A stretch of DNA of 64,000 nucleotides from Blastococcus litoris (GTDB lineage: Bacteria > Actinomycetota > Actinomycetes > Mycobacteriales > Geodermatophilaceae), in assembly GCF_003075095.1 (NCBI RefSeq), contig NZ_QCZF01000001.1, positions 186,001 through 250,000 on the forward strand, in the 5' to 3' direction. A model generated the notes under the pieces. That model worked only from the letters and a program-made list of their open reading frames with translations, did not search any database and was not told the DNA's origin. Of the stretch, positions 6,720 to 26,250 are shown piece after piece (the first letter of the stretch is position 1; each line of letters begins with the position of its first letter). The translations under genes were made by a program, and so were the position numbers.

Positions 6720-7831
6720 CGCGGGTCCTCGGAGGTGGGGCGGGCGAAGGAGCGGGGCTGGGGGCGGCGCGGGGGCACGGCGGCCGGCACCGGCGGGCGT
6801 CCGCCGGCGAGGGCGACCACCGGCTCCTCCTCGTCCTCGCGGACGTCGATCTCGGGGACGTCGTCCGGGGCGGGCGTCTCGCCGCCGAGCCGGCGGCCGG
6901 CGAGCCAACCGCGGGCCCACAGGCGCAGGGCGGCGATGCGGTCGTTGGTGACCGGCTCCCACTGCCGGGCCGCGATGGCCTCGGCGAGGGCGTCGACGAC
7001 CTCGACGTCGTCCTCGTAGGTGGCGACGGCGAGCAGCGTGGCCGTGTGGGCGCCGAGGCCGTCGGCGACCAGGTCCTGGATCTGGGCGATCCGGTGGGCG
7101 GGCGGGAGGTGCCCGAGGCGGTAGTCGATGCGGCCGGCCTCGCGCCGGGCGGCCATGCGCCGCGACAGGGCGCGGGGGAGGACGCGGCGGTGGAGGAAGC
7201 CGGCGAACGACCAGTACTTCTGCAGCGGGGTGTCCGGCTGCATGGCGCGGTAGCCCAGGCCCGGGCGGGCCCAGCTGCTGGGACGGCGGGCGGTGTGCCG
7301 GCCGGCGACGTCCTGCTCGGCGCGCTGGGCGGCCGGCAGCGTGACGGCGACCATGACGAGGAAGCCTCCGAGGGTCGTGGCGAGGGCCCAGAGGGTCCCG
7401 ATCCAGTCGTGGAAGAGGGTCATGGCGGGGGCGCCCCACCACAGCCCGGCGAGCGCCGAGAGCGTGAGCCGGATGTTGTTGGCAATCACCACGGCGACGA
7501 CGGCGGCGAGCAGCCCGAGCACCGCGTGCCCGCGGCGGGAGCGCATGACGGCGACGTTGAGGGCGGTCAGGCCCATGACGGTCAGCAGCGAGGAGCAGGA
7601 CGTGGTGACGACGCCGTCGAGCACCTCGCCGTTCCCGCGGAACATGAGGATGTGCCCCGGCAGGATCGAGGAGACCTCGTCGACGCCGAACAGGCGCAGG
7701 ACGTGGACGGCGAGCGCGCCCTCCTGCTCGCGGAACCAGGTGGACGCCCAGAAGTAGCCGGTCAGGCAGATGGCGACGGCGACGAGGAGCTCGACGAGGA
7801 CCACCCACCGCCGCTGCGCGGACGCGGTCAT
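6716..7831 (-). CDS. Exosortase/archaeosortase-family transpeptidase
   Basis: A 371-residue protein. Residues 1-180 form the multi-spanning exosortase core with the three family residues in place: Cys 79 in 'TTSCSSLL', Arg 121 in 'ANNIRLT' and His 141 in 'LFHDWIG'. Exosortases are membrane Cys proteases that cut a C-terminal sorting signal, normally in bacteria that export an extracellular polysaccharide. The second half (about 190-371) is soluble, probably cytoplasmic, charged and Pro-rich at the end, and is unusual for the family. The start at 7831 overlaps the GT2 stop. The secreted protein at 3183-3734, in the same operon, is the obvious candidate client. Confidence 0.88.
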   Translation of the reverse strand: MTASAQRRWVVLVELLVAVAICLTGYFWASTWFREQEGALAVHVLRLFGVDEVSSILPGHILMFRGNGEVLDGVVTTSCSSLLTVMGLTALNVAVMRSRRGHAVLGLLAAVVAVVIANNIRLTLSALAGLWWGAPAMTLFHDWIGTLWALATTLGGFLVMVAVTLPAAQRAEQDVAGRHTARRPSSWARPGLGYRAMQPDTPLQKYWSFAGFLHRRVLPRALSRRMAARREAGRIDYRLGHLPPAHRIAQIQDLVADGLGAHTATLLAVATYEDDVEVVDALAEAIAARQWEPVTNDRIAALRLWARGWLAGRRLGGETPAPDDVPEIDVREDEEEPVVALAGGRPPVPAAVPPRRPQPRSFARPTSEDPR

Positions 7832-9195
7832 CGCGCGGCCGCCGTGACGGTCGACGTGGCGCCGGTGCGCGAGGTCTTCACCCACGAGTACTGCCGGCCG
7901 AGCATGCCGTCGAGGTAGGCGCGCGAGGTGATCCAGATCGAGAGGGCGAACGCCGGGATGAAGCCGATCAGGCTCCACGCGGCGCGCCGCTCGACCCGGC
8001 CGACCAGCAGGCCGACGGTGAGCTCGGCGAGCGGGCCGACGAACAGCAGCATCGACAGCGGCAGGATGCCCACGGCCGGCTCGTCGCCGATGTCGAAGGC
8101 GCGCAGGACGGCGAGGAGCACGCCGAGGCCGCTGAGCACCGGCACGTGGTAGCTGAGGAGGAAGAGGACCGACTCGCACTTCTCGACCAGCGAGAGGTGC
8201 GTCGAGCGCAGGGTCGGGCCGACGTAGTCGCGGAAGCACTTCTGGTGGCCGCGGGCCCAGCGGTAGCGCTGGGTCCAGAAGCGGCGCGCGGTGACGACGG
8301 CTTCCTCGTAGTCGATGGCCGACACGTCGTAGCGCACGCGCTGGCCGGAGAGCAGCACGCGCAGGGTCAGGTCGGTGTCCTCGGTGACGGTCTCGGGGTT
8401 CCACCCGCCCAGCGCCCGCAGCGTCGACATGCGCACGGCGCAGTTGGCGCCGCCGTAGGCCGGCAGCTCGAACAGGGCCTGGCGGCCGTACTCGTTGACC
8501 AGGTAGCCGGAGAGGAAGTCGACGAAGACCGTGGTGGCCATCGTCGATTCCTCGCCGTTGCGGATGACGCAGCGGCCCATGACGGCCCCGACCTCGGGGT
8601 CGCGGAAGTGGCGGACCAGCCGCATCAGGGCGTTGGGCTCGGGCTCGTGGTCGGCGTCGAAGACCAGGACGATCTCGGCGTCGACGGTCTCGAGGGCCTC
8701 GTTGAGCGCGCCGGACTTGCCGCCGCCGGCGTTCGGCGGGCGGTGCAGCACGCGCAGCCGCGGCTCGGCTGCCGCGCGGGCGTCGAGGATGGCGCCGGTG
8801 GCGTCGTCCGAGCCGTCGTCCACGACGACGACCGACAGCTTGTCGGCGGGGTAGTGCATGCCCAGCAGGGCGGTGAGCATCGCGTCGACGACGAGCTCCT
8901 CGTTCTTGCACCCCACGAGGACGGCGACCGACGGCGTATAGCCGTCGAGGTCGACGTCGGGGGCGAGGAGGTCGGTGCCGGCCCAGCGGGCGGCGCTGAC
9001 CGCGAAGGCCAGGTGCCGGAAGAAGTAGACGGCGAAGACCATGTTCAGGGCGCCGGAGATCCAGCCGAGCACCGGGTCGGCGCCGAACGCCCAGATCGTG
9101 ACGGCGAGCAGGGCGACGTAGAGGAACAGCACGGGACGCCGGCCGTCGGGACGGCCGGCGTGCACGGTGCCGGTGGGTTCGAGCGTGGTGGTCAT
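7828..9195 (-). CDS. Processive membrane glycosyltransferase, family GT2
   Basis: A 455-residue membrane glycosyltransferase. Two N-terminal helices (about residues 20-65) precede the GT-A domain, which has 'DDGSD' (126-130), 'DAD' (180-182), 'TED' (271-273) and 'QRYRW' (309-313). This is the D,D,D,QxxRW set of cellulose-synthase/NodC/hyaluronan-type processive enzymes. About four more helices follow. Such enzymes polymerise a sugar from UDP- or GDP-sugar and may push the chain across the membrane. With a PIG-L deacetylase beside it, a partly de-N-acetylated amino-sugar polymer is a reasonable guess. Coupled by 4-base overlaps at both ends. Confidence 0.93.
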   Translation of the reverse strand: MTTTLEPTGTVHAGRPDGRRPVLFLYVALLAVTIWAFGADPVLGWISGALNMVFAVYFFRHLAFAVSAARWAGTDLLAPDVDLDGYTPSVAVLVGCKNEELVVDAMLTALLGMHYPADKLSVVVVDDGSDDATGAILDARAAAEPRLRVLHRPPNAGGGKSGALNEALETVDAEIVLVFDADHEPEPNALMRLVRHFRDPEVGAVMGRCVIRNGEESTMATTVFVDFLSGYLVNEYGRQALFELPAYGGANCAVRMSTLRALGGWNPETVTEDTDLTLRVLLSGQRVRYDVSAIDYEEAVVTARRFWTQRYRWARGHQKCFRDYVGPTLRSTHLSLVEKCESVLFLLSYHVPVLSGLGVLLAVLRAFDIGDEPAVGILPLSMLLFVGPLAELTVGLLVGRVERRAAWSLIGFIPAFALSIWITSRAYLDGMLGRQYSWVKTSRTGATSTVTAAAR

Positions 9196-9908
9196 CGGGC
9201 GGCGGCGGTGCGACGAGGGGCGGGGACCTTGGCGGGGCGGTCGGCGCGCCGGGTCCGGTCGGTGCGCCGGGTGGGGACGGCGGTCCGCGGCACGGGGGCG
9301 AGGTCGAGCACCATCCGCGTGGGCACGAAGGCCTCGGCGAACCCGATGCGCGCCTGGGCGCCCCAGTGGCGGGCGGAGGCGACGACGGCGTCGGGCTCGA
9401 CCATCGCCGACTGCTCGACCTGCGAGGCGTGGGCGCGGAGGGCGGCCAGCTTGCCGGTGAGGTGGTGCGTGACGTCGACGAAGACGGTCGGGTTGAAGGT
9501 GAGCGTCGACGGGCTCTGGTAGTGCAGCACGCGCGGGTGCCGGCGGGCCGCGGACAAGGTGGCGGCCGAGACGGCGCGGTGGTCCTGGTGGCTGTCGTCG
9601 GGGGCGTGCACGTAGACGAGGTCGGCCTTCGTCTCCTCGAGCACCTGCTCGATCACCTGCACGGTGGCGGCGTCGGGGGAGAGGGTGCAGTCGCGGAAGC
9701 CGCCCCAGCGCAGCCGGGCGCCGAGGGCGCCCGCGGCGGCGGCCTGCTCACCGCGGCGGTGGGTGACGCCGGGGCCGTTCTCGCCGCCGGTCATCACCAG
9801 CATGGTGACGACGTCGCCGGCGCCGCTGTGCGCCAGCAGCGCGCCGCCGCAGCCGAGCTCGACGTCGTCGGGGTGCGCCCCGATCGCGAGCACCGACCTG
9901 CCGGCCAC
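9192..9908 (-). CDS. PIG-L-family deacetylase
   Basis: A 238-residue zinc-dependent N-deacetylase. The two family motifs are present: 'AHPDD' (residues 11-15) and 'HQDH' (107-110), which hold the metal and catalytic Asp. Known members deacetylate GlcNAc-containing molecules (GlcNAc-PI, MshB, BshB) or antibiotics. Next to a GT2 polymerase and WecB it probably acts on an amino sugar of the operon's glycan. The last 45 residues are an Arg/Thr/Pro-rich extension not expected in the fold. It is the first gene of the operon. The GTG start at 9908 has GGAG 6 nt upstream, inside a repeat that could sequester it. Confidence 0.9.
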   Translation of the reverse strand: MAGRSVLAIGAHPDDVELGCGGALLAHSGAGDVVTMLVMTGGENGPGVTHRRGEQAAAAGALGARLRWGGFRDCTLSPDAATVQVIEQVLEETKADLVYVHAPDDSHQDHRAVSAATLSAARRHPRVLHYQSPSTLTFNPTVFVDVTHHLTGKLAALRAHASQVEQSAMVEPDAVVASARHWGAQARIGFAEAFVPTRMVLDLAPVPRTAVPTRRTDRTRRADRPAKVPAPRRTAAAR

Positions 9909-9914
9909 CGACCA

Positions 9915-9953
9915 CTCCTGTCACGTCCGTCGACAGGAGGGATCTCCTGTCAC
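9915..9953 (-). promoter_or_regulatory. Leader with duplicated Shine-Dalgarno and an anti-copy (possible translational switch)
   Basis: Read on the minus strand, GTGACAGGAG occurs at 9953-9944 and again at 9924-9915, the second being the ribosome binding site of the PIG-L gene. Between them CTCCTGTC (9939-9932) is complementary to both. It can pair with the upstream copy (8 bp, 4-nt loop), leaving the binding site free, or with the downstream copy (8 bp, 9-nt loop), hiding it. The layout is seen directly. A regulatory function is inference, and the same repeats could instead be a DNA operator. Confidence 0.45.
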
Positions 9954-10216
9954 TCGGACCGGTGATCGGCACTCGGGAGCGATAGCTGTAGCGATTCTTC
10001 CCAACCGCCCCGAGCCGGCCCGACAGAGCCAGACCAGCGCCATCGTGGGGGAAGGCCGGTGCGGCCTCTGCGGAGGCGCCCTGATGCTCGTGACCAGCCG
10101 TGAGTCAGGGCCGGCGCAGCCTGGCTCAACCCGCTGTGGGTCACGGAGGTCGAGGTGCACGAGGTGTGCACCTGGCGCCGAGCCCGGCTGCCGCTCCACG
10201 AGACGGACGTCCGACG
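9954..10216. other. Intergenic stretch with a possible frameshifted zinc-ribbon remnant
   Basis: No intact gene is visible. A plus-strand frame from GTG 10045 has a zinc-ribbon-like opening 'RCGLCGGALMLVTS' and then loses coding character. Another frame carries a plausible protein end ('LNPLWVTEVEVHEVCTWRR') and stops at TAG 10218-10220, overlapping the stop of the convergent gene. A small gene broken by a frameshift would explain both, but the evidence is weak. The promoter of the minus-strand operon must lie in the left part. Confidence 0.3.
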
Positions 10217-10708
10217 CTAGTCACCCGTCAGACCGGCGGGCCATACGACGGTGAGTGTCAGCACCAGCAGGTGGGCCAGTCCGATCAGCACCAGGCCGGT
10301 CTGCCAGACGGCATAGCTCTTGCTCTTGGTCAGACGTGTGGCGCCGGCGTACTCGTCGGCCGCGTCCCCGTAGGCGTGCGTCGACAGGCCGGAGAGCCGC
10401 GAATCGCCCTCGAGCTCCCGCAGCTTCCACTCGTCGAGGCGGCGCAGGTACCGGTGCTTGGCCATCAACTGGCAGGTCATGTACGCGACCACGACGCCGA
10501 GGACGCTGGCGATCCCCCGAGCGAAGCGAGCGGTGTCGGGATCCAGCCCGATCGTGAGCAGGAACGCCTGCGCGGTCACGGCGAGCGCCGGCGTCTGCCA
10601 CACCAGCGCGTCCTTCTCCATGCTGCGCAGGAACAGCAGCTCGTAGGCGAACTCGTCGCCCTGCCTGCGCGAGGTCGTCCGTCGCGCTCGGCGTGCTCCA
10701 GCGATCAC
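10217..10708 (-). CDS. Membrane protein with two helix pairs, unknown function
   Basis: A 163-residue protein beginning at GTG 10708. After a basic, charged segment it has hydrophobic stretches around residues 40-55 and 60-82. A soluble charged loop with 'HRYRLRRLDEWKLRELEGDSRL' follows, and then a C-terminal hydrophobic stretch (about 133-157). The loop is probably cytoplasmic. No family is recognised. The frame stays open leftward into the next gene's antisense, so the long open frame up to 12022 is an artefact. It is divergent from the surface-protein gene at 10937. Confidence 0.65.
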   Translation of the reverse strand: MIAGARRARRTTSRRQGDEFAYELLFLRSMEKDALVWQTPALAVTAQAFLLTIGLDPDTARFARGIASVLGVVVAYMTCQLMAKHRYLRRLDEWKLRELEGDSRLSGLSTHAYGDAADEYAGATRLTKSKSYAVWQTGLVLIGLAHLLVLTLTVVWPAGLTGD

Positions 10709-10936
10709 GCGCCCATGCTGTCGTGTCGGGTCGGCCGAGATCGGCTGCGGCGCGCCCTCCCGCCGGCGGTTTCGCAACCGCGTGCCGCTACGCGTTGCGC
10801 GCGCTCTGTTATTGGTGAGACGGAACGGTTCCCATCGCACGATCCGGCAGTTACGGTACCGCGACGCATCGGCCGCTTCGGGCCGGTTCGAGCTGCCGAT
10901 CGCCGTCGCGGCGTCGGGTTCAACGGGGAGTTTCGT

Positions 10937-12199
10937 GTGAGAAGTCGACTGGGCCGTGCCCTGCTCGTGGCCGCCATCAGTGTCACGGCGTGGGGCGCCG
11001 GTACTGCCGTCGCCCAGGCGGCGGTGGAGACCACCGCCAAGGCCGGCATCGCCTGCGACGACTGGCCGTCCGGTCTGATCCGGGCCACTGGCCTGGAGCC
11101 CGGCAGCGAAGTTCAGGCGCAGTACGACGGCCGAACTGCGAACTCCAGCCCGGCCGACGCGTCGGGCAACGCCCAGTTCGCCATCTCCTACCAGCAGGGG
11201 GAGCTCGAGGTCGGCGACGTGATCGCCTACGACATCGTCTCCGGCGGGCAGACGGTTGCGAGCGACAGCGTCGAGGTCGAGGACCTCTGCGGGGCGAGCG
11301 GCACGTTCTCCATCACCCGGAGCTGCGCCACCCCGGGCTCGATGAGTGCGGCGGTGAGCCTGACCGGCGCGCCGGCGGGGGAGACGCTCGACCTGTTCCT
11401 GATCGGCGACGGCTTCTACTTCACCGAGTCCGGCCACAAGGGCAACCCGGGCTTCCACCAGTTCTTCGTCGCCGAGGACGGCACCTTCGACGGCGTCCTC
11501 GAACTGGAGCCTGATGAGTCCTACATCGCTGCCCAGCAGACGGCGTTCGAGGCCGAGCTGTACATCGGGGCCGTCGACTACAACTACGCCTTCATCATCG
11601 AGGCGGAGCCGATCACCGTCCCGGCCTGCGCCGCGGCCACGCCGGAGGACCCCGAGGACCCGGACAACCCGGAGACGCCGGGCAGCCCGGGCACGCCGCA
11701 GACGCCGGGCAACCCCGGCACCCCGCAGAACCCGGGGAACCCGCAGACCCCCGCGGCGCAGCCCGTCGACTACCCGGCCGGTGCCGGGAGCGCCACGGTC
11801 GCCCCCGGCGCCGAGCAGACGCTCACCGTGCCCGGCTTCCAGCCGGGTGAGTCGGTGCAGGTGACGCTGTTCTCGACGCCCGTCGACCTCGGTGTCCACC
11901 CGGCCGGCGCCGACGGTGTGCTGCGCCTGGCCTTCACCGTCCCGGCGGGCCTCGAGCTGGGCGCGCATCGCGTCGAGCTGGAGGGCCTGACCAGCGGCAG
12001 GGTCGTCAACGTGCCCTTCCACGTGGCGTCGGCCGCGGGCGCGACGGCATCCGCTCCGGTCGCCACCTCGGTGAACGCGAAGTCGCTGGCCTACACCGGC
12101 ACCGACGTGGCCCCGCTGCTCGGCCTCGGTCTGCTGACGCTCGCGGGAGGGGCCGCGCTGATCCGCACGGGCGTGCGGCGTCGGGCCGCTTCTCGCTGA
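10937..12199 (+). CDS. LAxTG-type cell-wall surface protein with Pro-rich stalk
   Basis: A 420-residue exported protein. The signal peptide ends about residue 30 ('AVAQAA'). Two beta-rich repeats follow, each opening with a Cys-containing strand. A stalk rich in Pro, Gly, Asn and Thr covers about residues 236-275. A second beta domain ('PGFQPGESVQVTLFSTP') is typical of actinobacterial surface proteins. The C-terminus is a sortase signal: 'LAYTG', a hydrophobic helix and 'RRRAASR'. LAxTG is the motif used by class E sortases in high-GC Gram-positives, so the protein is probably fixed to peptidoglycan. The GTG at 10937 follows GGGGAG by 6 nt; upstream open sequence is not part of the gene. The sortase is not in the window. 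Confidence 0.88.
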   Translation: MRSRLGRALLVAAISVTAWGAGTAVAQAAVETTAKAGIACDDWPSGLIRATGLEPGSEVQAQYDGRTANSSPADASGNAQFAISYQQGELEVGDVIAYDIVSGGQTVASDSVEVEDLCGASGTFSITRSCATPGSMSAAVSLTGAPAGETLDLFLIGDGFYFTESGHKGNPGFHQFFVAEDGTFDGVLELEPDESYIAAQQTAFEAELYIGAVDYNYAFIIEAEPITVPACAAATPEDPEDPDNPETPGSPGTPQTPGNPGTPQNPGNPQTPAAQPVDYPAGAGSATVAPGAEQTLTVPGFQPGESVQVTLFSTPVDLGVHPAGADGVLRLAFTVPAGLELGAHRVELEGLTSGRVVNVPFHVASAAGATASAPVATSVNAKSLAYTGTDVAPLLGLGLLTLAGGAALIRTGVRRRAASR

Positions 12200-12202
12200 C
12201 CC

Positions 12203-12385
12203 TCACGGCGTGGGGGCGCCCTCCACCACCTGACGGACGACCGGCTCAATGCGGTCGGCCGAGAGGGCGTGCCCCGCGTCGGTGGGACTGATCAGGTCGG
12301 CGGCGACGAGGTCTCCGCCCCCGGCGAACCACTCTGCGGCCAGGGAATCGACGAACGTGGCGCCCGCTGCTTCCGCCGGCGCAGC
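12203..12385 (-). pseudogene. C-terminal remnant of an SGNH/GDSL hydrolase
   Basis: A minus-strand frame of 60 codons from 12385 to the TGA at 12203-12205 has no start codon and follows directly after an in-frame TGA (12388-12386). It translates to 'ATFVDSLAAEWF', then 'LVAADLISPTDAGHALSADRI'. The 'PTDAGH' with preceding Asp matches block V of SGNH esterases, where Asp and His complete the catalytic triad. The rest of the enzyme is missing; the sequence upstream is the start region of the GalE-like gene. It is best read as the stump of an acetyl-esterase gene lost by deletion. Confidence 0.6.
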
Positions 12386-12419
12386 TCAGAAACAGCTGCG
12401 GCACCGTACGGTTCCCTGC

Positions 12420-13855: not shown

Positions 13856-16800
13856 GTGAAGACCTGGCTCGACAGCTGGCCGGTGTACCGGCAGCTCACC
13901 GGCCCCGATCCGTTCGGTCGGGGCAAGGCCGCCCGCAGCAAGGGCACCGAGGCGACGGTGTCGCGCACCGCGACCGCCGACCGCGTCGTGAAGAGCGTCT
14001 GCCCGTACTGCGCCGTCGGCTGCGCGCAGAACGTCTACGTGAAGGACGAGAAGATCGTCCAGATCGAGGGCAACCCGGACTCGCCCATCAACCGGGGCCG
14101 GCTGTGCCCCAAGGGCAGCGCGAGCAAGCAGCTGGTCACGAGCCCGACCCGCGTCACCACGGTCAAGTACCGCCGTCCGTACGGGACGGACTGGGAGGAC
14201 CTCGACCTCGACACGGCGATGGAGATGATCGCCGACCGCGTGCTCGAGGCCCGCCGCAAGGGCTGGCAGGACGAGGACAAGGGCAAGCGCGTCAACCGCA
14301 CCATGGGGATAGCGAGCCTCGGAGGGGCGACCCTCGACAACGAGGAGAACTACCTCATGAAGAAGCTTTACAGCGCCATGGGCGCGATCCAGATCGAGAA
14401 CCAGGCGCGCATATAGCACTCCGCCACGGTGCCCGGTCTGGGTGCCTCGTTCGGCCGTGGTGGCGCAACCAACTTCCTGGAAGACCTCGCGAACTCCGAC
14501 TGCATCGTCATCGAGGGTTCGAACATGGCCGAGTGCCACCCGGTGGGCTTCCAGTGGGTGGGTGAGGCCAAGGCGCGCGGCGCCAAGATCGTGCACATCG
14601 ACCCGCGGTTCACGCGGACCAGCGCGATCGCGGACCTGCACGTGCCGCTGCGCATCGGCACCGACATCGCGTTCCTCGGCGGGCTCATCAACTACGTGCT
14701 GAGCAACGACCTGTACTTCGAGGAGTACGTCAAGGCCTACACGAACGCGGCGGCGATCGTCGGGGACGACTACGTCGACGCCGAGGACGGCGACGGGCTG
14801 TTCTCCGGCTTCGACCCGGAGAACCGCACCTACGACGAGAGCAGCTGGCAGTACGAGCCGCGGGAGCAGGACTCCTCGACCGACAACCCGGCCGAGGCCG
14901 CGGAGCAGGACCGCGAGGAGCAGCACCCCGACGTCAAGAAGTCCGACCGGGCCCAGGCCGCCGGCAGCGGTGGCCCGCCGATCGCGAGCAAGCCGTTCCG
15001 CGACGAGACGCTGCAGCACCCGCGCTCGGTGTTCCAGATCCTCAAGCGGCACTACGCCCGGTACACGCCGGAGATGGTGGCCGAGGTCTGCGGCATCGAG
15101 CCGGCGGTGTTCGAGCAGGTCGCGAAGTGGGTCACCGAGAACAGCAACCGCGACCGGACGACGGCCTGGGTGTACTCGGTGGGCTGGACGCAGCACAGCG
15201 TGGGCGCGCAGTACATCCGCACCTGCTCGATCCTGCAGACGCTGCTGGGCAACATCGGCCGCCCCGGCGGCGGGATCCTGGCGCTGCGCGGGCACGCGAG
15301 CATCCAGGGGTCGACCGACGTCCCGACGCTGTTCAACCTGCTGCCCGGCTACCTGCCGATGCCGCACGCGATGCAGCACTCCTCGCTCGAGGAGTACGTG
15401 GCCGACGCGGCCGGCAAGGCCGGCTTCTGGGGCAACAAGCGCAACTACATGGTCAGCCTGCTCAAGGCCTGGTGGGGCGACGCGGCGACGGCGGAGAACG
15501 ACTTCTGCTTCGACTACCTGCCCAAGATCAACGGCGACCACAGCTCCTACCGGACGATCGCCGACATGATCGAGGGGAAGGTCTCGGGCTACTTCCTCGT
15601 CGGCGAGAACCCGGTGGTCGGGCACCCGAACGGTCGGATGAACCGGTTCGGCCTGGCCAACCTCGACTGGCTCGTCGTCCGCGACCTCCAGATGATCGAG
15701 TCGGCGACCTTCTGGAAGGAGTCGCCGGAGATGGAGACCGGCGAGCTCTCGCCGGACACCATCGCGACCGAGGTCTTCTTCATGCCCGCGGCGACGCACG
15801 TGGAGAAGGACGGCACGTTCACCCAGACGCAGCGGCTGCTGCAGTGGCGGGACAAGGCGGTCGAGCCGCCGGACGACGCCCGCAGCGATCTCTGGTTCTA
15901 CTTCCACCTCGGCCGGATCCTGCGCGACCGGTTGAAGGACTCCAGCGACCCGCGCGACCGCCCGCTGCTCGACCTCACCTGGGACTACCCGACGCACGGG
16001 GAGACGGCCGACCCCGACGCCGACGCCGTCCTGCGGGAGATCAACGGGACCGGCCCGGACGGGAAGGCCCTGTCCTCCTACATGCAGATGAAGGACGACG
16101 GCTCGACCACCGGTGGCTGCTGGATCTACTGCGGCGTCTACGCCGACGAGGTGAACCAGGCACGACGCCGGAAGCCAGGCAGGGAGCAGGGCCCCGTCGC
16201 GAGCGAGTGGGGCTGGGCCTGGCCGCTGAACCGGCGGATGCTCTACAACCGCGCCTCGGCCGACCCCGACGGCAAGCCGTGGAGCGAGCGGAAGAAGTAC
16301 GTCTACTGGGACGAGGACGCCGGCGAGTGGACCGGTCTCGACGTCTCCGACTTCGAGAAGACCAAGCGGCCGGACTACGTGCCACCGGAGGGGGCCAAGG
16401 CCCAGGACGCGCTGGCCGGCAACGACCCGTTCGTCATGCAGGGCGACGGCAAGGCGTGGCTGTTCGCGCCGTCCGGCGTGGTCGACGGCCCGCTGCCGAC
16501 GCACTACGAGCCGGTCGAGTCGGTGGTGGAGAACTCGCTGTACAAGCAGCAGGCCAACCCGACCGTCGAGCGCATCCCGGGGCCGTGGAACCGGGAGAAC
16601 CCGTCGCTCAGCGACGTCTTCCCGTTCCAGGTGACGACGTACCGGCTGACCGAGCACCACACGGCCGGCGGGATGAGCCGCACGCTGCCCTACCTGGCCG
16701 AGCTCCAGCCGGAGTTCTTCGTGGAGGTCTCGCCGGAGCTGGCGGCGCTGCGCGGGCTCACCAACGGTGAGTTCGCCACGCTGGTCAGCGCCCGGACGGC

Positions 16801-17143
16801 GATCGAGGCCAAGGTGCTGGTGACCGAGCGGATGCGGCCGATCCGGCTGCGCACCGGGCAGGTGGTGCACCAGATCGGCATGCCGTACCACTGGTCCTAC
16901 AGCGGAATCTCCACCGGCGACTCGGCCAACGACCTGCTGGGCATCGTGCTCGACCCGAACACCCACATCCAGGAGGACAAGGTCAGCACCGCCGACATCG
17001 TGCCCGGGCGGCGCCCGCGCGGGCCGGAGCTGCTGGAGTTCGTGGAGGGCTACCGCCGCCGGGCCGGGGTGGAGTCCGGCCGGGTGGGCGTCAACGGCCG
17101 GGATCCGGTCGACGCGGAGGCCGGGGAGGGCTCGAAGCTGTGA
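13856..17143 (+). CDS. fdhA: Formate dehydrogenase alpha subunit, selenocysteine encoded by UAG
   Basis: A 1,095-residue molybdopterin (bis-MGD) enzyme oxidising formate to CO2, if the in-frame TAG at 14414-14416 is read as selenocysteine 187. Cys 49, 52, 56 and 84 hold the [4Fe-4S] cluster ('CPYCAVGC...GRLCPKG'). The active site reads 'ENQARI-[TAG]-HSATVPGLGASFGRGG', matching the ENQARI-U-HS motif of FdnG/FdhF. The frame is then open for 908 codons through 'GSNMAECHPVGFQWV', the Mo-bisMGD body and the C-terminal 'HQIGMPYHWSY' region. Start at GTG 13856 because the family N-terminus begins there. No twin-arginine signal is seen, so the enzyme is probably cytoplasm-facing. It overlaps the beta-subunit gene by 4 bases. 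Automated calling would split it into a 186-residue piece and a piece from about 14429. Confidence 0.93.
14414..14416 (+). other. In-frame UAG read as selenocysteine (Sec187)
   Basis: TAG lies exactly where formate dehydrogenases carry Sec (UGA) or Cys, between 'NQARI' and 'HSATVPG'. Both flanks are in the same frame. UAG-decoding tRNA-Sec has been reported in Geodermatophilus and Blastococcus, with selenoprotein synthesis shown by labelling. No selC, selA, selB or selD lies in this window. Several genes here still end with UAG (for example at 2220, 36800 and 62499), so the codon is context-dependent. Confidence 0.9.
14417..14463 (+). promoter_or_regulatory. Bacterial SECIS hairpin following the UAG codon
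   Basis: Right after the UAG, GGUGCCC (14428-14434) pairs with GGGUGCC (14440-14446) to give a 7-bp stem, two of the pairs G-U, with loop GGUCU (14435-14439). A lower stem can form between CCGCCAC (14421-14427) and GUGGUGG (14457-14463). The loop begins 18 nt after the UAG. That is the same distance, with the same GGUCU loop sequence, as in the E. coli fdhF element that binds SelB. The helices are derived by hand; the exact lower-stem register is uncertain. Confidence 0.8.
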
Positions 17144-18201
17144 CGACGATCAGCTCGGCGAGCGCGGCGTTCACCGGCCGGGACCCCGGGAACCGGCTCT
17201 ACGGTCCGGTGCCGGACGTGACGGAGCAGGCGGGCTACGTCGAGGAGCACCCGAAGCGGGTCGGGTTCTTCACCGACACCTCGGTGTGCATCGGCTGCAA
17301 GGCCTGCGAGGTGGCGTGCAAGGAGTGGAACACGCTGCCGATGGACGACTCGCACGGCAACCGGGACGCCCTCGGTCTGTCGGGGATGTCCTACGACAAC
17401 ACCGGGCAGCTGGGCGCCAACTCGTGGCGGCACGTGGCGTTCATCGAGCAGTCGCGGGCCGTCGACCTGCCGATGCCGACGTTCGGCCGGCCGGGGGACG
17501 ACCGGGGCGACATGCCGGCGCCGGACACCGGTGACCTGGACACCACCGCGAAGGCGCAGGCGAGCGTGCTCAACGCGGAGGCGCTGAGCGAGTTCGACCC
17601 GCAGACGGGGCAGACGGGGGCGGACAAGCAGGTCCGCTGGCTGATGAGCTCCGACGTCTGCAAGCACTGCACGCACGCCGGCTGCCTGGACGTCTGCCCG
17701 ACCGGGGCGCTGTTCCGCACCGAGTTCGGCACCGTCGTCGTCCAGGGCGACATCTGCAACGGCTGCGGCTACTGCGTGGCCTCCTGCCCCTATGGCGTCA
17801 TCGACCAGCGCAAGGACGACGGCCGGGTCTTCAAGTGCACGATGTGCTACGACCGGCTGACCGACGGGCTGCAGCCGGCGTGCGCCACCGCGTGCCCCAC
17901 GCAGTCGATCCAGTTCGGCGACCTCGACGAGCTGCAGGCCCGCGCCGACGCACGGCTCGAGACCCTCAAGTCGCAGGGTGTGGAGACGGCGCGGCTGTAC
18001 GGGCGCGACGAGGAGGACGGCGTCGGGGGAGCGGGGGCGTTCTTCCTGCTGCTCGACGAGCCGGAGGTCTACGGCCTGCCGCCGGACCCGATCGTGACCA
18101 CCCGCGACCTGCCCGCCATGTGGAAGGCCGCGGGCAAGGCGGCCGTGATGATGGTCGGGGTCGCCCTCACGGCGGTCCTCGGCTCGCGGCGGTCCCGGTG
18201 A
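17140..18201 (+). CDS. fdhB: Formate dehydrogenase iron-sulfur (beta) subunit
   Basis: A 353-residue electron-transfer subunit. Four ferredoxin-type Cys sets are visible: 'CIGCKACEVAC' (Cys 50, 53, 56, 60), 'CKHCTHAGCLDVC', 'CNGCGYCVASC' and 'CTMCYDRL...CATAC', giving four [4Fe-4S] clusters as in FdnH/HybA-type proteins. A 60-residue insert between the first and second sets ('GRPGDDRGDMPAPDTG') is longer than in E. coli. A single hydrophobic helix near the C-terminus (about 330-346) would dock it to the membrane, followed by 'RRSR'. It passes electrons from FdhA to the NrfD-like subunit. The GTG start overlaps the fdhA stop and its own stop overlaps the next start. Confidence 0.94.
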   Translation: MTTISSASAAFTGRDPGNRLYGPVPDVTEQAGYVEEHPKRVGFFTDTSVCIGCKACEVACKEWNTLPMDDSHGNRDALGLSGMSYDNTGQLGANSWRHVAFIEQSRAVDLPMPTFGRPGDDRGDMPAPDTGDLDTTAKAQASVLNAEALSEFDPQTGQTGADKQVRWLMSSDVCKHCTHAGCLDVCPTGALFRTEFGTVVVQGDICNGCGYCVASCPYGVIDQRKDDGRVFKCTMCYDRLTDGLQPACATACPTQSIQFGDLDELQARADARLETLKSQGVETARLYGRDEEDGVGGAGAFFLLLDEPEVYGLPPDPIVTTRDLPAMWKAAGKAAVMMVGVALTAVLGSRRSR

Positions 18202-19235
18202 CCGGCGGGATCACCAGCCCGGACCACGGGTGGCGGCAGGCCGACCACGGCCCGGCCACGCAGCGGACGACGAAGCGCCGTCGTCGTGGCGGCGGACGCG
18301 GCCGTGGCGAGGTCGCGATGGTCGACGACGTCGAGTTCACCTCGTACTACGGCCGGCAGATCGTCAAGACGCCGGTGTGGAAGTCGCCGGACGTGCCGCT
18401 GTACCTCTTCCTCGGCGGGGCTGCGGGCTCGTCGTCGATCCTGGCGGCGATCGCGGACCTCACCGACCGGCCGACGCTGACGCGGGTCGGGCGGATCACC
18501 GCCGGTGGCGGGGCGATCCTGTCGGTGGTCGCCCTGGTGCACGACCTGGGGCGGCCGGAGCGCTTCCTGCACATGCTGCGGGTGTTCAAGGTGACCTCGC
18601 CGCTGTCGGTCGGCACCTACATCCTGTCGCCGTTCAGCGCCGCGGCCGGGGCGACCGCGGCCGTGGAGATCCTCGGCTGGTTCCCGCGGCTCAAGCGCTT
18701 CGGGGGAGTGGTGTCCGCCCTGTTCGGCGGGCCGCTGGCGACCTACACCGGGGTGCTGCTGGCCAACACGGCCGTGCCGTCGTGGCACGCGGCGCACACC
18801 CAGCTGCCGTTCGTCTTCGGCGGCTCGGGCATGGCGGCCGGTGGCGGGATCTCGATGATCTTCACGCCGGTCGACGAGGCGGGACCGGCGCGGAAGATGG
18901 CGGTCGCCGGTGCGGCGATCGAGCTGGCCGTGGTGCACAAGGTGGAGAACGACCACGGCATCCTCAGCGAGCCGTACCACGAGGGCCGCCCAGGGAAGTT
19001 CATGCGCGCGGCGAAGGCGTGCACCGCGGCCGGAGCCGGGCTGACCGTGCTGGCCGGGCGCAGGCGCTGGGGGGCCGTTGCGTCAGGAACGCTACTGGCG
19101 GCCGGCTCGCTGCTGACGCGGTTCGGCGTCTTCGAGGCCGGCATCGCCAGCACCAAGGACCCGAAGTACGTCGTCATCCCGCAGCGCGAGCGCATGGCGG
19201 CCGCGAACGGCCAGGCCCGCTCCGTCACTCGCTGA
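18198..19235 (+). CDS. NrfD/PsrC-like membrane subunit of the formate dehydrogenase
   Basis: A 345-residue polytopic protein. After about 40 hydrophilic residues with a strongly basic run (residues 25-36, Arg and Gly) comes 'FTSYYGRQIVKTPVWKSPDVPLYLFLGGAAGSSS', the usual start of the NrfD fold, then about eight hydrophobic segments. NrfD proteins bind quinone and take electrons from the four-cluster subunit, so the complex should link formate oxidation to menaquinone reduction. GTG 18198 overlaps the beta-subunit stop; ATG 18318 is an alternative start. It replaces the cytochrome b FdnI of enteric bacteria. The selenocysteine genes often found after such operons are absent; low-GC sequence begins here instead. 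Confidence 0.9.
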   Translation: MTGGITSPDHGWRQADHGPATQRTTKRRRRGGGRGRGEVAMVDDVEFTSYYGRQIVKTPVWKSPDVPLYLFLGGAAGSSSILAAIADLTDRPTLTRVGRITAGGGAILSVVALVHDLGRPERFLHMLRVFKVTSPLSVGTYILSPFSAAAGATAAVEILGWFPRLKRFGGVVSALFGGPLATYTGVLLANTAVPSWHAAHTQLPFVFGGSGMAAGGGISMIFTPVDEAGPARKMAVAGAAIELAVVHKVENDHGILSEPYHEGRPGKFMRAAKACTAAGAGLTVLAGRRRWGAVASGTLLAAGSLLTRFGVFEAGIASTKDPKYVVIPQRERMAAANGQARSVTR

Positions 19236-19357: not shown

Positions 19358-19492
19358 GCGTGGCCGCGAGACTCGGCCGCACAAGAGCATGGATAAGCTC
19401 GGCCAGACACGATGACGGCCTCCCCTAGAAGCTGTTGGTACGCCGACATTGAACTCCTATCCGTTGTTAACCAGTTCCCGAGGTGCGCATCC

Positions 19493-20692
19493 ATGCAACG
19501 TTCTGATATGGACCAGGAATCACAAGCCGCCTTTGCGGCCGGTCGGCTGTTCGACGCCTCAACGGAGAAGATCGCCATCGTGGTTAACAATGACTATTCC
19601 CTGCTCGACCATCGCAGGAACTGGGTAGAAGCCTTCCTCGGGGCGCAAGCAACCGTTCTCGTCTATGCCGAGGCAACCGGCCCTCACGAGCAACTGATCG
19701 ACCGAGGCGTGAAATTCACGAACACGGCAATCGGTCGTGAAGATGTATCTCTGATTCGGGAACTCGCTCGATTGTTGCGGTTGACGATCGTGCTACTTCG
19801 GGAGAGACCCCATATCGTCTTCTTGATACAGACCCGCGCCAATGTTCTCGGTTGCGCCCTTCCCTTGGTGCTACGACGGACCAGATTTGTGCGGGTCTTC
19901 GGGGGGCGCGGTCGAGTCTTCGGCGACACATCCGGCGGCAGTAGGTTGGTGAAGCTGGCAACGCGTATTTGCCTTAGCCTGTCCGCGCATTGCAAGAACA
20001 CGACGAGCATATTTCAGACGCCGAGCGATCTAGACTACTTCGCCAAGCGCCAGATGGCCGTGCGTGAGCGCTCTCGTGTGATCGTCGGCACCGGAGTGAG
20101 CGTCGACAAGTGGTCCGAGCAATCGCAGGCTCCCCGCACTGACGAACCCGTGGTCGTCATGATCGCCAGACTGTTCAAGGAGAAGGGTGTCTACGACTAC
20201 GTAGATGCAATCCGCCTTCTGCGCAAACGGGATGTTCGCGCAAGGTTCGAACTCGTCGGGCCGATCGACGAAGGCCTGTCGACGAGTGTCTCCGCGCAGG
20301 AGATTGCTGACTGGGAGCGCGAAGGCTTGGTTCGGTATCTTGGTCGACAAGAGAATATCGCCGCAATCTTGCGCGAGTGCCACACTTTGGTCCTCCCGTC
20401 ATACCATCCAGAAGGAACCCCGCGAGTGCTCCTTGAGAGCGCGGCGGCCGGCGTGGTTCGCATCGCCAGTGACATCCCGGGCTGCGCTGCGACGATCGAA
20501 TCCGAAGTCGACGGCATACTTGTTCCGGTCCGCGACCCGGAGTCACTTGCCAGGGCGATAGAACGCTCGGTCACACAGCCCGACTTGGCGAACCGTCTCG
20601 GCATGGCCGCACAGGCGCGCGCGCGGAGGGAGTTCCCGGTCGAAAGGGTCGTGGCGCAGGTCTTGGATGCGGGCGGCGTGCGGCGGCGGTAG
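19493..20692 (+). CDS. Glycosyltransferase family 4 protein
   Basis: A 399-residue retaining GT-B transferase. The N-terminal half has 'EKIAIVVNNDYSLLDHRRNWVEAF' and the UDP-sugar half has 'VVVMIARLFKEKGVYDYVDAI', 'RARFELVGP' and 'HTLVLPSYHPEGTPRVLLESAAAGVVRIASDIPGC'. The last is the E-x7-E region plus 'PGC' typical of GT4 enzymes in O-antigen and capsule clusters (WbpX/WfbA-like). ATG 19493 is preceded by AGGTG; ATG 19508 and 19412 are alternatives. Codon use is noticeably less GC-biased than in the fdh genes. First gene of the polysaccharide locus; its acceptor and donor are unknown. Confidence 0.88.
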   Translation: MQRSDMDQESQAAFAAGRLFDASTEKIAIVVNNDYSLLDHRRNWVEAFLGAQATVLVYAEATGPHEQLIDRGVKFTNTAIGREDVSLIRELARLLRLTIVLLRERPHIVFLIQTRANVLGCALPLVLRRTRFVRVFGGRGRVFGDTSGGSRLVKLATRICLSLSAHCKNTTSIFQTPSDLDYFAKRQMAVRERSRVIVGTGVSVDKWSEQSQAPRTDEPVVVMIARLFKEKGVYDYVDAIRLLRKRDVRARFELVGPIDEGLSTSVSAQEIADWEREGLVRYLGRQENIAAILRECHTLVLPSYHPEGTPRVLLESAAAGVVRIASDIPGCAATIESEVDGILVPVRDPESLARAIERSVTQPDLANRLGMAAQARARREFPVERVVAQVLDAGGVRRR

Positions 20693-21137
20693 CTCGAAGA
20701 CATCCGTCCCTCTCCCAGCACACATGAAAAGCGCCGGTCGGTGACCCGAGCGGCGGAGTCTCCATTGCAACGAGCCGGGGGTGCGCCTCACTGGCGCCCA
20801 CCGCGCCCCTGCACTGGACCATCGTCGAGAACGGCATTCTGATGCGCCTGAGTCCGGCCTGCATTCAGTTCAGAAACCGCACCTGCAGGGACCCGCAGAG
20901 CTCACCGACTCTTCCTCGACTGTGGGGGAGGCTGACCCTGGTGAACCGTGGGGTGGAGGCCTCGTTACGTCGCACATCCGGTCAGCCAGCAGCGAGGGGA
21001 GTGCTCGCCGAAACGCGGATCATGTAGAAGCCGGAGAGTCCGTCCTGTGTCCGAGGCAGATCGGATGACACGCAGTCTTGGCGTCTGGCTGCGCCGGCCC
21101 GCAGCTGGCCACCACGATGGAAGCGCGGGTATCTCAG
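20693..21137. other. 445-base gap without a recognisable gene
   Basis: Lies between the convergent GT4 and Wzz-like genes. Open frames exist on both strands, but their translations are rich in Ser, Arg and Pro, match nothing I know, and lack convincing start signals. No strong terminator hairpin is visible. The length is unusual for a convergent junction in this otherwise compact genome and may be decayed sequence. Confidence 0.5.
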
Positions 21138-22247
21138 TCAGCCGCGAGAGCTTTCGAAGGCAGAGCGAGACGTCCCACCGTCTTCCATGGGCGATGAATC
21201 CGTCTCTCCCTGCACACTCGTCGGCAACACCTTCATAGCCTCATCGCGGACTTCGAGTGGATGCGCCCCCGCATCGCCCCGATGGAGCGGAGAAGCCGCA
21301 GTTACGTGATCTTGCGGCGACTGACGGGCGTCAGACGCAGGAGGGGATCCGACCGCCGCGTCGCTTGGCCCTCCCTCCAATGCCGAACTCGGGAGGCCAG
21401 TTGGCACCATGCGTCGCCTGTCCCTCGAGATGAAGATGCGCGCCGCAAGAAGCCCGAGAAGCAGGATCGCGATGGGGCCGTAGATAGCCGGATTCGGGGT
21501 AGCCAGCTCGGCTACCGTGGCCTCCTCGACAAGCTCGGACGTCGGAGTGAGCGGGGCATTGCTCAAGGAGGTGACGAGCACTGCCTGTCGCTGCTGTTGG
21601 AGGGCGGAGATCTCCGACTGGGCAATCGACAAGTTCGCTAGGGCGAGCGACCGGGCATTCGCGTCGCTCGTGGTGCTCGCGATCTGGTTAGCGGCGTCTG
21701 CGCGAGATCGAGCGTCGTCAAGAGCGGCATCGATGGGCTCGAGGCTGCTTTCCGACTGCTCCTCGTATGAGCCCATGGCCGCTTTGACCCTCTCCGCCAC
21801 AGCCGATACAAGGGTGGCAGCGACCGCATTCGCCGCCGCCTGAGCATCTCGGGACTCCGGTAGAGAGACGGTGATGCGGATGAGGTTCTGATTGACATTG
21901 ACCGCGGCTTCGACTCGGTCGATCAACTGCTCGGGTTCGAAGCCGATGGAGGATGCGGCTGCGCTGGTGATGGATGCCGTTTCAGCTAACGCCGCATACT
22001 GGATCGCCAGCTCGTTCGAGGCACTGACACCGTCGCGCGCTGACGCGCGCGCACTAGAATCAACCGTCACCGACACGACTGCCGTCGATGAGTAGGCCGA
22101 GGGAGCCAACGCTGCGAGCAGGGCAGTGGCGCATGCAACAGCAACACACACCCCGAGCAGATGCCATCGTCGCGCCCATGCCAAGGACCAGGCATCTTGC
22201 TGAGGCGAACCCCGGTGAGATGAATTTCTATCCGTACTCAAGTGCAC
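21138..22247 (-). CDS. Wzz-like polysaccharide chain-length/export co-protein
   Basis: A 369-residue protein with a transmembrane helix near the N-terminus (about 29-52), an extracytoplasmic region with Ala-rich coiled-coil helices (about 120-230), and a second helix (about 252-270, 'IYGPIAILLLGLLAARIFI') followed by 'SRDRRR'. This hairpin topology is that of Wzz/GNBP-type chain-length regulators and actinobacterial CapA-like proteins. The last 95 residues are cytoplasmic, Ser/Pro-rich and disordered, without a kinase domain. GTG 22247 gives the listed start; TTG 22241 has better spacing to the GGGGAG. It faces away from the Wzy-like gene and probably controls polymer length together with it. 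Confidence 0.75.
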   Translation of the reverse strand: MHLSTDRNSSHRGSPQQDAWSLAWARRWHLLGVCVAVACATALLAALAPSAYSSTAVVSVTVDSSARASARDGVSASNELAIQYAALAETASITSAAASSIGFEPEQLIDRVEAAVNVNQNLIRITVSLPESRDAQAAANAVAATLVSAVAERVKAAMGSYEEQSESSLEPIDAALDDARSRADAANQIASTTSDANARSLALANLSIAQSEISALQQQRQAVLVTSLSNAPLTPTSELVEEATVAELATPNPAIYGPIAILLLGLLAARIFISRDRRRMVPTGLPSSALEGGPSDAAVGSPPASDARQSPQDHVTAASPLHRGDAGAHPLEVRDEAMKVLPTSVQGETDSSPMEDGGTSRSAFESSRG

Positions 22248-23006
22248 TCCCCGCGCTAGTAACAGCTCTCACCGGTGAACCTTCGCAACGTCGCGACCAA
22301 GGTTGGCAGTCTGACTCGAGCCGCGCACGGTCTTTGCCGCGAGTGAGGTGAGTCGTTCCGCGCCGTTGCGCACAGACGAGGAGGCGGCGTTGCAAGCGAA
22401 TGCTGCATCATGGTTTCGATCCATGGCACCGCTGGACGTGCTCGTCACTCGTCCGTGCACAGCTTCCCTACTATCTGTTAGTCCACTTCGCCTCATAGTG
22501 ACGGCTCTCCGACAACTTGGCGGCCCCAGATCGAACGATCTCCGGTGCAGTTTAGGCTTCACGCCCCTCCGTGCCAGCGGGAGGCGCCCACTGCCTGAAG
22601 ACACTGGATCCCGTGTCCAGGCTAGCGGGTGCGGTTATCAGAAACGTCGTCCTCGCGCTGTGGAGATCCGCATGCCGCGGATGCATCAGATTGTGTGCAC
22701 CCGTCTGCGGAATGGTCGCAGGCCAGCGATCTCCATCGGAGGTGACCCACGTTCAAACTTCGTGATCGACGGGGGATGCTTGCGCGCATCGACCGTGACC
22801 TATCTGACGACCAGCTGCGGGGGATGTCACCCGAGGGCCCGCCAGCTCGCCAACGGTGTCGACAGACTGGTCCGCAACTGCTGCATCGCACCGGACCGCC
22901 TGAGCCGATCGCAGCGGCCGGCCACCCTCGGATAACCTGACTTGGTCGCAACAATTCAGACACTCAAGCGGTCACCGCTTCGACGGGGCAAAGGAAGCCA
23001 CTCATC
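22248..23006. other. 759-base divergent intergenic region, no clear gene
   Basis: Lies between the divergent Wzz-like and Wzy-like genes and must hold both promoters. The only short frame with a fair ribosome binding site is ATG 22776 to TGA 22940 (54 residues, starting 'MLARIDRDLSDDQLRGMSPEG'), which I do not recognise. The other open frames have Arg/Ser/Cys-rich translations typical of chance. Base composition is lower in GC than the flanking housekeeping regions. A decayed gene is possible. Confidence 0.5.
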
Positions 23007-24284
23007 GTGACCAGTCCTACCCTTCCGGTGGTCCTCCAGATCGCCCTTCTGGCGGTCGTACTGCGGCTGGGCAAGCACAATAACGCCGATCCGACATTTT
23101 ACAAGTACTTCAACCCGCACGCGTTCTTTGGATTGTTCGTCACCCTCTTCTTCATCATCCCCGAGATCTACGGCTTGACCCACTACTACTATCTCGACGG
23201 TTTCCCATTCGCGGTTACCGAACGGTTGTTCATTGACGGCGCTTGGCTCTTCACCGTGTTCCTTGGGTTCGTATGCGTCGGCATGCTGCTGGCGCGACCG
23301 GCGAGGGTCGAAGCACCGATCACTGACAGATCCAAGATGATTCTCGAGTCGATCGAGACTCGACATCTTAAGCTCTTGACCGTCTTTCTGGCCAGTGGAG
23401 TCTTCGCGAACCTCTACTTGGCGATGCAGTTGAGTGGCTCGACCGGATTCCGCTCGCAGCTCGTCAAATCGGCGTCGGGTCAAGCTCTAACAATCATCGT
23501 CTACTTCGGGTCCTTCGCAGCGGCCTTGCTCACGGCGTACTTCATCAGCGTCAAGCGCTACTGGCTCGGGGCCGCTGTTCTCGTCACGTTCTCCGCTTCG
23601 GTGCTCTTGACGGAGTCGCGAGGGCGCATTCTGTGGCCAGCCGCGATAACGGTTATCCTCCTGATCAGCCGTCGCGCCAAGCCGCCTTTTGCCAGACTTG
23701 CCGTAATCGGCGTTCTGACACTCGTCGTCTTGCTCTTGCTAGACCCGGTCAACAAGTACCTGGCGTCGGGCACGCCGATCCAGCTATCTGACATCTTCAA
23801 CATCGACGCCCCGTTCCAGCGACGCAACTTCGACGGTATGTCGAACTTCGTTCTCATCTCGCAGTCAGGTCTTACGGAACCAGACTGGTCTAGATGGTTG
23901 AGTGGAGGGAATGTCGACTTTATGACCAAGTTTTTCCCTGACGTCCTGGCGTCAGGGGTTGCCTTCGGAGTTACGATTCCTGGCTGGCTTTACATGGCAG
24001 GCGGCGTCTTCGGCGTATGCGCCGGAGGGATCTTTTATGGGATGTTGCTCGGGCAGATAAACCGATTGGTGCGTCGAACGATCGCTCCGGAGCTCTTGGT
24101 CGGCTATCTCTTCGCCATGACTTGGCTCGGCGCTGTCGGCGGTGACTTCGTAGGAAGCCTCGACAAAGCGGCGGCCAGCTTCGCGCCGGCCGTCGTCTAC
24201 TGGTTGGTATGCAATCGCGCCAAGACCGGAAGGCATGCGGTCGATCGACCGCATATGCAGCAACTGTCAATGAACGAAGTCTGA
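23007..24284 (+). CDS. Wzy-like oligosaccharide repeat-unit polymerase
   Basis: A 425-residue membrane protein with about ten hydrophobic segments and a large loop around residues 245-320. 'TESRGRILWPAAITVILLISR' and the 'FNIDAPFQRRNFDGM' loop are the kind of features seen in Wzy/EpsG-type polymerases, which join lipid-linked repeat units outside the membrane. Sequence identity in this family is always low, so the call rests on topology and on the Wzx- and Wzz-like neighbours. GTG 23007 follows AAAGGAAG by a good distance. Codon use is mixed, with many TTG, CTT and ATC codons, unlike the surrounding 70+ % GC genes. It heads a two-gene unit with the flippase. Confidence 0.8.
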   Translation: MTSPTLPVVLQIALLAVVLRLGKHNNADPTFYKYFNPHAFFGLFVTLFFIIPEIYGLTHYYYLDGFPFAVTERLFIDGAWLFTVFLGFVCVGMLLARPARVEAPITDRSKMILESIETRHLKLLTVFLASGVFANLYLAMQLSGSTGFRSQLVKSASGQALTIIVYFGSFAAALLTAYFISVKRYWLGAAVLVTFSASVLLTESRGRILWPAAITVILLISRRAKPPFARLAVIGVLTLVVLLLLDPVNKYLASGTPIQLSDIFNIDAPFQRRNFDGMSNFVLISQSGLTEPDWSRWLSGGNVDFMTKFFPDVLASGVAFGVTIPGWLYMAGGVFGVCAGGIFYGMLLGQINRLVRRTIAPELLVGYLFAMTWLGAVGGDFVGSLDKAAASFAPAVVYWLVCNRAKTGRHAVDRPHMQQLSMNEV

Positions 24285-24368
24285 TCGAAAGTGGAAACGA
24301 AGTCGGCCGTCCTCGCGCACCCAAGCACGCGACTTCAATGGCGCTCAGTGGGAAGGGCCCGATAGAGA

Positions 24369-25646: not shown

Positions 25647-25650
25647 CCGA

Positions 25651-26130
25651 CTACAGGTACGGCCATCCGCGGGAATGATCGTGGCGTTGCTTCAGAGGGG
25701 CGATGCGACTGTTAGCAGTGGGGAGCAACACGTGATCATCCGGCACGCTCTGCGTCACCACCGCGTGGGCTCCTATCACCGCGTTCCTGCCGACGGTGAC
25801 GCCACCGATGATGATGGCTCCCGGCATGATGCATGCACCGTCTTCGATTACAGGGTATTCTCCTCGGCGGTCGCGACCCAGCGTGACGTCATGATATATC
25901 GTGACATCGCGGCCGATTCTTACACCTTCGCCGATGACAATCCCAATCGGGTGCGGAACGTGCAGATCGGGCTGGATGGCGAACTTCGTCGAGACGTCGC
26001 AACCGTGAAGGCTCATAAGCAGATTGCGCCAAATGTACGCTGTCCAGCCGCCACGGCTGGCCGCTCGTATCAGTGCGGCACCCCGCAGGCGAGGGGTGGC
26101 GATCAACTTGATCAAAGAGAGCGTTCGCAC
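25651..26130 (-). CDS. Serine-acetyltransferase-like hexapeptide-repeat protein
   Basis: A 159-residue left-handed beta-helix acetyltransferase. A short helical N-terminus is followed by hexapeptide repeats ('IGIVIGEGVRIGRDVTIYHDVTLGRD', 'GACIMPGAIIIGGVTVGRNAVIGAHAVVTQSVP'). His in 'HDVTLG' and the 'IGANAVV'-like loop match CysE-type enzymes that use acetyl-CoA. It is much shorter than true CysE (about 270), so O-acetylation of a polysaccharide sugar is more likely than cysteine synthesis. It starts with GTG at 26130; no strong ribosome binding site. Located between the flippase and the epimerase. Confidence 0.88.
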   Translation of the reverse strand: MRTLSLIKLIATPRLRGAALIRAASRGGWTAYIWRNLLMSLHGCDVSTKFAIQPDLHVPHPIGIVIGEGVRIGRDVTIYHDVTLGRDRRGEYPVIEDGACIMPGAIIIGGVTVGRNAVIGAHAVVTQSVPDDHVLLPTANSRIAPLKQRHDHSRGWPYL

Positions 26131-26139
26131 AGGTACATT

Positions 26140-26250
26140 CTACGCCGAAGCGATATGGAGGTCCGACGAGTCCAACGAGTCGACGTGGAACGCTTCTGGG
26201 TGCCCAGGGATGCCTTCACAGTGGGGCAAGGGGCCGTACCAGGCGGCCAT
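26140..26250 (-). other. Short open frame, possible gene remnant
   Basis: A 36-codon minus-strand frame from ATG 26250 to TAG 26140. Its translation ('AAWYGPLPHCEGIPGHPEAF', then 'HVDSLDSSDLHIASA') looks like the end of a real protein, with coding-like codon use, while the surrounding 130 bases do not. It ends 10 bases before the acetyltransferase start. It may be the tail of a lost polysaccharide gene; I cannot name it. Confidence 0.3.

Follow-up and report, generated by a model that had tools for sequence, protein, structure and literature searches.

UAG as the probable selenocysteine codon of a formate dehydrogenase operon in Blastococcus litoris

Some bacteria use UAG for selenocysteine (Sec), as is also stated in the accessible part of PMC8124441, and the closest described system belongs to the family Geodermatophilaceae. 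The text of PMC5330540 available to us reports three Geodermatophilaceae genomes with a tRNA-Sec carrying a CUA anticodon, cites Mukai 2016 for UAG-Sec formate dehydrogenase (FDH) and UGSC proteins, and adds AhpC in Blastococcus saxobsidens as a further UAG-Sec case. A UAG-decoding tRNA-Sec was indeed already on record for this family in that text, as an earlier sequence-only reading of the DNA studied here (the original prediction) had stated. The use of UAG for Sec is therefore already in print for Geodermatophilaceae, as far as these sources go, and what is new here is another genome in which it occurs.

A formate dehydrogenase gene with one in-frame UAG

The window analyzed here is a stretch of 64,000 nucleotides of B. 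litoris (contig NZ_QCZF01000001.1, positions 186,001 to 250,000), and it carries a formate dehydrogenase operon made up of fdhA, fdhB and the gene for an NrfD-type anchor, with the following features.

13856..17143, + strand: fdhA, catalytic subunit of formate dehydrogenase; start codon GTG, 1095 residues with the TAG at 187 read through; matches NF041513
14411..14413, + strand: ATA (rare Ile codon) immediately 5' of the TAG; kept in 79 of the 79 TAG loci read
14414..14416, + strand: in-frame TAG at the selenocysteine position, U187; from the frame translation and the loci of relatives
14428..14446, + strand: SECIS hairpin, 7-bp stem with a GGUCU apical loop; from covariation and predicted fold
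17140..18201, + strand: fdhB, 4Fe-4S electron-transfer subunit; from profile matches
18198..19235, + strand: fdhC-like NrfD-family membrane anchor subunit; from a profile match

The TAG at 14414-14416 is the single in-frame stop of the fdhA frame, and 908 residues lie downstream of U187. The original prediction had described the same frame as continuing for 908 codons with the full enzyme, and this is what the profile search returned: the read-through FdhA of 1095 residues scores 1909 bits against NCBIfam NF041513 (cut-off 1400) over residues 4-1069, comprises the Molybdop_Fe4S4, Molybdopterin and Molydop_binding domains, and is the sole NF041513 match above cut-off in a profile search of the genome. 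The proposed placement of the TAG exactly at the FDH selenocysteine site likewise stands, with a stop at that site in 80 of the 80 named relatives examined, and the pointer of that prediction to Geodermatophilaceae agrees with the nearest named FDH proteins, which are those of Blastococcus.

UAG also serves as an ordinary stop here—the dual use that had been proposed for the codon—in that four frames of the window with Pfam matches end in TAG.

1941-2222: HxlR frame ending in TAG; Pfam match
19412-20692: glycosyltransferase frame ending in TAG; Pfam match
26371-27645, minus strand: epimerase frame ending in TAG; Pfam match
61482-62501: Glyco_transf_9 frame ending in TAG; Pfam match

A rough gene caller assigned 28 TGA and 2 TAG stops to 30 frames, a tally that needs a third-position G+C above 0.85 and so misses several of the TAG frames listed above. 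As a separate observation, the part of the window from about 19400 to 28200 has a lower third-position G+C, as in an acquired polysaccharide cluster, which it resembles; the glycosyltransferase and epimerase genes ending in TAG lie in it.

Behind the TAG, after 11 nt, stands the hairpin GGTGCCC-GGTCT-GGGTGCC (14428-14446). The Sec site was read in 111 loci (the window, 30 from the family and 80 from named genomes, with species overlap possible), and covariation tests were run on the 73 distinct sequences among these 111, with column 0 placed at the T of the stop codon, so that the hairpin occupies columns 14-32. Pair 17-29 joins two third codon positions, is of a standard type in every one of the 73 distinct sequences and takes five forms (TG 4, GT 19, CG 30, GC 10, TA 10); its mutual information of 1.27 bits is the highest among all pairs in columns 3-59, the next being 0.52, and 0 of 10000 shuffles—which ignore relatedness—get to 73 (their mean is 33.9). 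At pair 20-26, 72 of these sequences have C-G and 1 has G-C. Counting against the hairpin, the outermost pair 14-32 is standard in only 61/73 and pair 16-30 in 72/73. The predicted fold in a 90-nt context gives the four inner pairs a probability of 0.73-0.75, and pairs 15-31 and 16-30 probabilities of 0.14 and 0.17, respectively. Folding energy was rejected as evidence for a SECIS element, the energy being ordinary for the composition: that of the 40-nt stretch is no better than shuffled (z -0.18, 82 of 200 shuffles as good). Support for the SECIS therefore comes from covariation, and it is on this ground, not on energy, that the bacterial-type hairpin proposed behind the TAG is borne out.

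Decoding genes and the reading of the UAG

The original prediction suggested searching the complete genome for a tRNA-Sec with anticodon CUA and for selA, selB and selD, and all of them are present side by side. The tRNA-Sec lies at G000:C4:347182-347273 (G000 being the genome of the window), scores 66.8 bits (gathering score 47) and has the anticodon CUA; the next-best match, at 49.7 bits, was discarded, being a tRNA-Ser according to ARAGORN and scoring better as an ordinary tRNA. The three sel genes, each above its NCBIfam cut-off, flank the CUA tRNA-Sec on both sides (in L008, selD at 6942-7949 on the minus strand, selA at 9308-10612 and selB at 10609-12387), and the four genes together lie within 5.4 kb. 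A second UAG selenoprotein candidate, a TAG-bearing gene of the UGSC family, lies at G000:C16:13980-14408. UGSC loci were found with NF041046; PF20696, tried as a model of the family, turned out to be UbiD_C.

ARAGORN labels the CUA tRNA "tRNA-Pyl" with anticodon cta, and on that label the UAG could be read as pyrrolysine by a pyrrolysine tRNA. We consider this extremely improbable, since the tRNA reaches 66.8 bits with the tRNA-Sec covariance model, above the gathering score, and sits between selD and selA-selB, since no pylS above cut-off was found in the genome (the best PylS match reaches 22.4 bits against a cut-off of 178.15), and since relatives have a Sec-type stop or Cys at the site.

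What the sequences show directly is the codon, the CUA tRNA, the sel genes, a hairpin that covaries and a match of codon to anticodon throughout the family. That fdhABC encodes a selenocysteine formate dehydrogenase with UAG as its Sec codon is, in our judgement, nearly certain, the presence of Sec in the enzyme itself being inferred from the known bacterial pathway. By analogy with that pathway, the CUA tRNA-Sec would first receive serine from SerRS, and SelA would then turn the serine into Sec, with SelD supplying the selenophosphate. By binding the hairpin 3' of the UAG, SelB would bring in the Sec-tRNA, which would compete with RF1 at the fdhA UAG; UAG codons outside Sec sites would stay stops.

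Some termination at Sec codons is to be expected from work on E. coli UGA, for which the accessible part of PMC4513850 gives a recoding efficiency of 30-40% in vivo, and it could be argued that the truncated protein is the main product here, with the UAG passed only by ordinary near-cognate suppression (inserting, e.g., Gln or Tyr). Such suppression accounts neither for a tRNA-Sec of its own that fits the codon throughout the family nor for the covariation of the hairpin, and we hold it to be very unlikely.

Codon and anticodon across Geodermatophilaceae and their relatives

We found tRNA-Sec in 108 of 112 family genomes, with 110 matches, and the anticodon was read in all 110: 102 have CUA and 8 have UCA, the latter comprising seven from the genera g5-g7 and one that is a second copy in genome G058. 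FDH (NF041513, E up to 1e-200) occurs in 100 of the 112 genomes, with 120 matches by hand count. Each of the 114 family matches across the Sec site contains exactly one stop, a TAG, and in all 31 of them in which the stop was located, the window genome included, the TAG is at the Sec site; the remaining 6 of the 120 either begin past that site (4) or are copies with deletions in G079 (2). A lone in-frame stop in an otherwise whole fdhA might be taken for a pseudogene lesion or a sequencing error. This explanation, which we regard as having a negligible chance of being correct, is opposed by the single TAG in 114 of 114 site-spanning family matches, by the same codon in the 31 loci read and in 48 named records, by the intact frame and by the covarying hairpin. 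A resequenced TGA had been named as an outcome that would overturn the original prediction; the same TAG recurs across the family and is no isolated sequencing error.

The genera g5-g7 form a comparison group within the family. All seven tRNA-Sec found there have UCA (L089-L095), so three genera keep UCA, and no FDH of the NF041513 type was found at E 1e-200 in the nine g5-g7 genomes. In two g7 genomes, G072 and G074, a distant FDH homologue (33-34% identity) was read; its Sec codon is TGA, and its hairpin has a GGTCT loop. Further matches, with one TGA each by stop count, occur in G071 and G073. The UGSC matches in G066 and G072 are without a stop. As far as the loci were read, the Sec codon follows the tRNA-Sec anticodon within Geodermatophilaceae.

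Several individual genomes deserve mention. In G079, both FDH paralogues (L087, L088) have lost the stretch with UAG and SECIS through different frame-breaking deletions, and the genome nevertheless has a CUA tRNA-Sec (L036); the deletions represent either a hairpin-induced assembly error or a real loss. The incomplete genome G036 (88%) has two different CUA tRNA-Sec matches, L274 (G036:C25:205-296) and L053, which reflect either duplication or contamination. On G070:C162, from a UCA genus, two short FDH-like pieces (L252, L260), separated by some 50 bases, match parts of the enzyme that are distant from each other; one of the pieces has an internal TAG, and they are perhaps a remnant.

Among named genomes, we examined the best 80 of 282 FDH relatives, and a stop occupies the Sec site in every one of the 80 (48 TAG, 32 TGA). 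The 32 TGA records among these best 80 all come from other families. The 48 TAG records are labelled Blastococcus, Geodermatophilus, Modestobacter, Trujillonella or Geodermatophilaceae, with two exceptions—a "Frankiales" MAG and a Bacillus record—both of which fall inside the TAG clade of the FDH tree. The latter record, L113, is labelled Bacillus sp. AZ43 (UNVERIFIED_ORG); its FDH falls inside the Blastococcus clade, and the label looks wrong.

In a class-wide census, 109 of 394 genomes matched, and TAG alone was found only in the two Geodermatophilaceae members drawn; one match, in G481, has one TGA and one TAG by stop count. The stop column of this census gives no position, as illustrated by L237, which is listed with "1 TGA" and has TGC at the Sec site. 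Thirty class relatives were read at the Sec site itself, of which 19 have TGC or TGT (Cys) and 11 have TGA. In a FastTree phylogeny of 111 FDH proteins, TAG forms one clade reached by one change (local support 100), and in an 11-row SelB tree with its root on two plasmid sequences, the 4 rows with CUA form one clade. Either tree is compatible with UGA having been exchanged for UAG once.

Sequence context of the switch and comparison with known systems

The codon 5' of the TAG in FDH is ATA in 79 of 79 loci, and that 5' of TGA is ATT in 23, GTT in 7 and ATA in 2 of 32. Over the rest of the same FDH genes in the 80 named loci, the TAG set uses ATA for 35 of its 1834 Ile codons and ATC for 1795, and the TGA set uses ATT for 6 of 1128. 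UGSC shows a comparable bias: GAT precedes the TAG in 13 of 22 loci and makes up 14 of the 244 other Asp codons (Fisher p 1.5e-9, uncorrected for relatedness); these 22 are the TAG-bearing loci among 30 NF041046 matches listed, one of 23 rows, an other-frame match of L199 (TGA), being left out. The base 5' of the TAG is C in 9 of the 22 UGSC loci, and A or U at this base is thus preferred, without exception only among the FDH loci read. An A/U bias 5' of the Sec codon, set against a strong codon bias, appears in two unrelated selenoprotein families (FDH, L055-L084 and L111-L190; UGSC, L199-L220), and in FDH the base differs by lineage, being A with TAG and mostly U with TGA.

Pairing of this base with the hairpin was considered as an explanation of the bias and dropped, because positions -3 to 1 show no predicted pairing above a probability of 0.15. 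A weaker release-factor context may lie behind the bias, although this is a guess. A limited literature search brought up no published account of the base 5' of bacterial Sec codons that we recognised, and we make no claim that it is unpublished. In the tRNA, the closing pair of the anticodon loop is C-G in 102 of 102 CUA tRNAs and U-A in 8 of 8 UCA tRNAs; because the switch looks like one event, this match amounts to a correlation of one.

Genome G058 combines both anticodons. Its CUA tRNA-Sec adjoins its selD, selA and selB, and a second tRNA-Sec, with UCA (L085:1173-1263, on G058:C17), is at 81.8 bits the best match of the family. The contig of this second tRNA carries transposase genes and has a G+C of 69.7% over the stretch read, vs 77.8%. 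A second sel/FDH set beside it was sought and dismissed, since tblastn at E 1e-3 gave no match to selA, selB, selD or FDH in the first 20 kb of the contig; the genome has a single selB at E 1e-60, and of its three FDH homologues one carries a TAG and the other two are free of stops. The search for a phage source of the stretch gave no match, and among plasmids five records matched, over 13-23% of the query. Arthrobacter and Tsukamurella plasmids (L267, L268) carry fdh-nrfD-selD-selA-selB cassettes with a UCA tRNA-Sec between selD and selA, and for this reason our preferred reading of the G058 UCA tRNA-Sec is a plasmid cassette remnant; contamination may also be the source of the contig. The Arthrobacter plasmid with the fdh-sel cassette is typed as conjugative.

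It is conceivable, if rather doubtful, that the codon switch went beyond the anticodon: the base 5' of the Sec codon would then be part of the recoding signal, the loop-closing pair would also have changed, and G058 might read both stops as Sec, either as a living intermediate or through a plasmid-driven return of UGA. Through the base 5' of the Sec codon and the two tRNA-Sec genes of G058, the route of the switch becomes testable. More generally, another genome confirms that Sec coding can pass from UGA to UAG with UAG kept as a stop elsewhere, and the census puts this switch inside one bacterial family, in which the UCA genera serve for comparison. Gene-calling programs for which UGA is the sole Sec codon are likely to split UAG-Sec genes.

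Among known systems, the UGA-Sec FDH of other actinobacteria (for example the Streptomyces and Nocardioides loci among L159-L190) belongs to the same enzyme family and has its hairpin at the same position, but uses TGA instead of TAG and is mostly preceded by ATT or GTT rather than ATA. The gene set is also found on two UGA-type plasmids, where fdh, the 4Fe-4S subunit gene, nrfD, selD, tRNA-Sec, selA and selB occur together. The Geodermatophilaceae UAG-Sec system, as described in the text of PMC5330540 available for comparison, comes from the same family and has the same CUA tRNA-Sec and the same UAG Sec site in FDH and UGSC proteins. Nothing essential differs between it and the B. litoris locus, which represents another genome; relative to that text, the family census, the genera with UCA, the base 5' of the codon and the double tRNA-Sec of G058 are additions.
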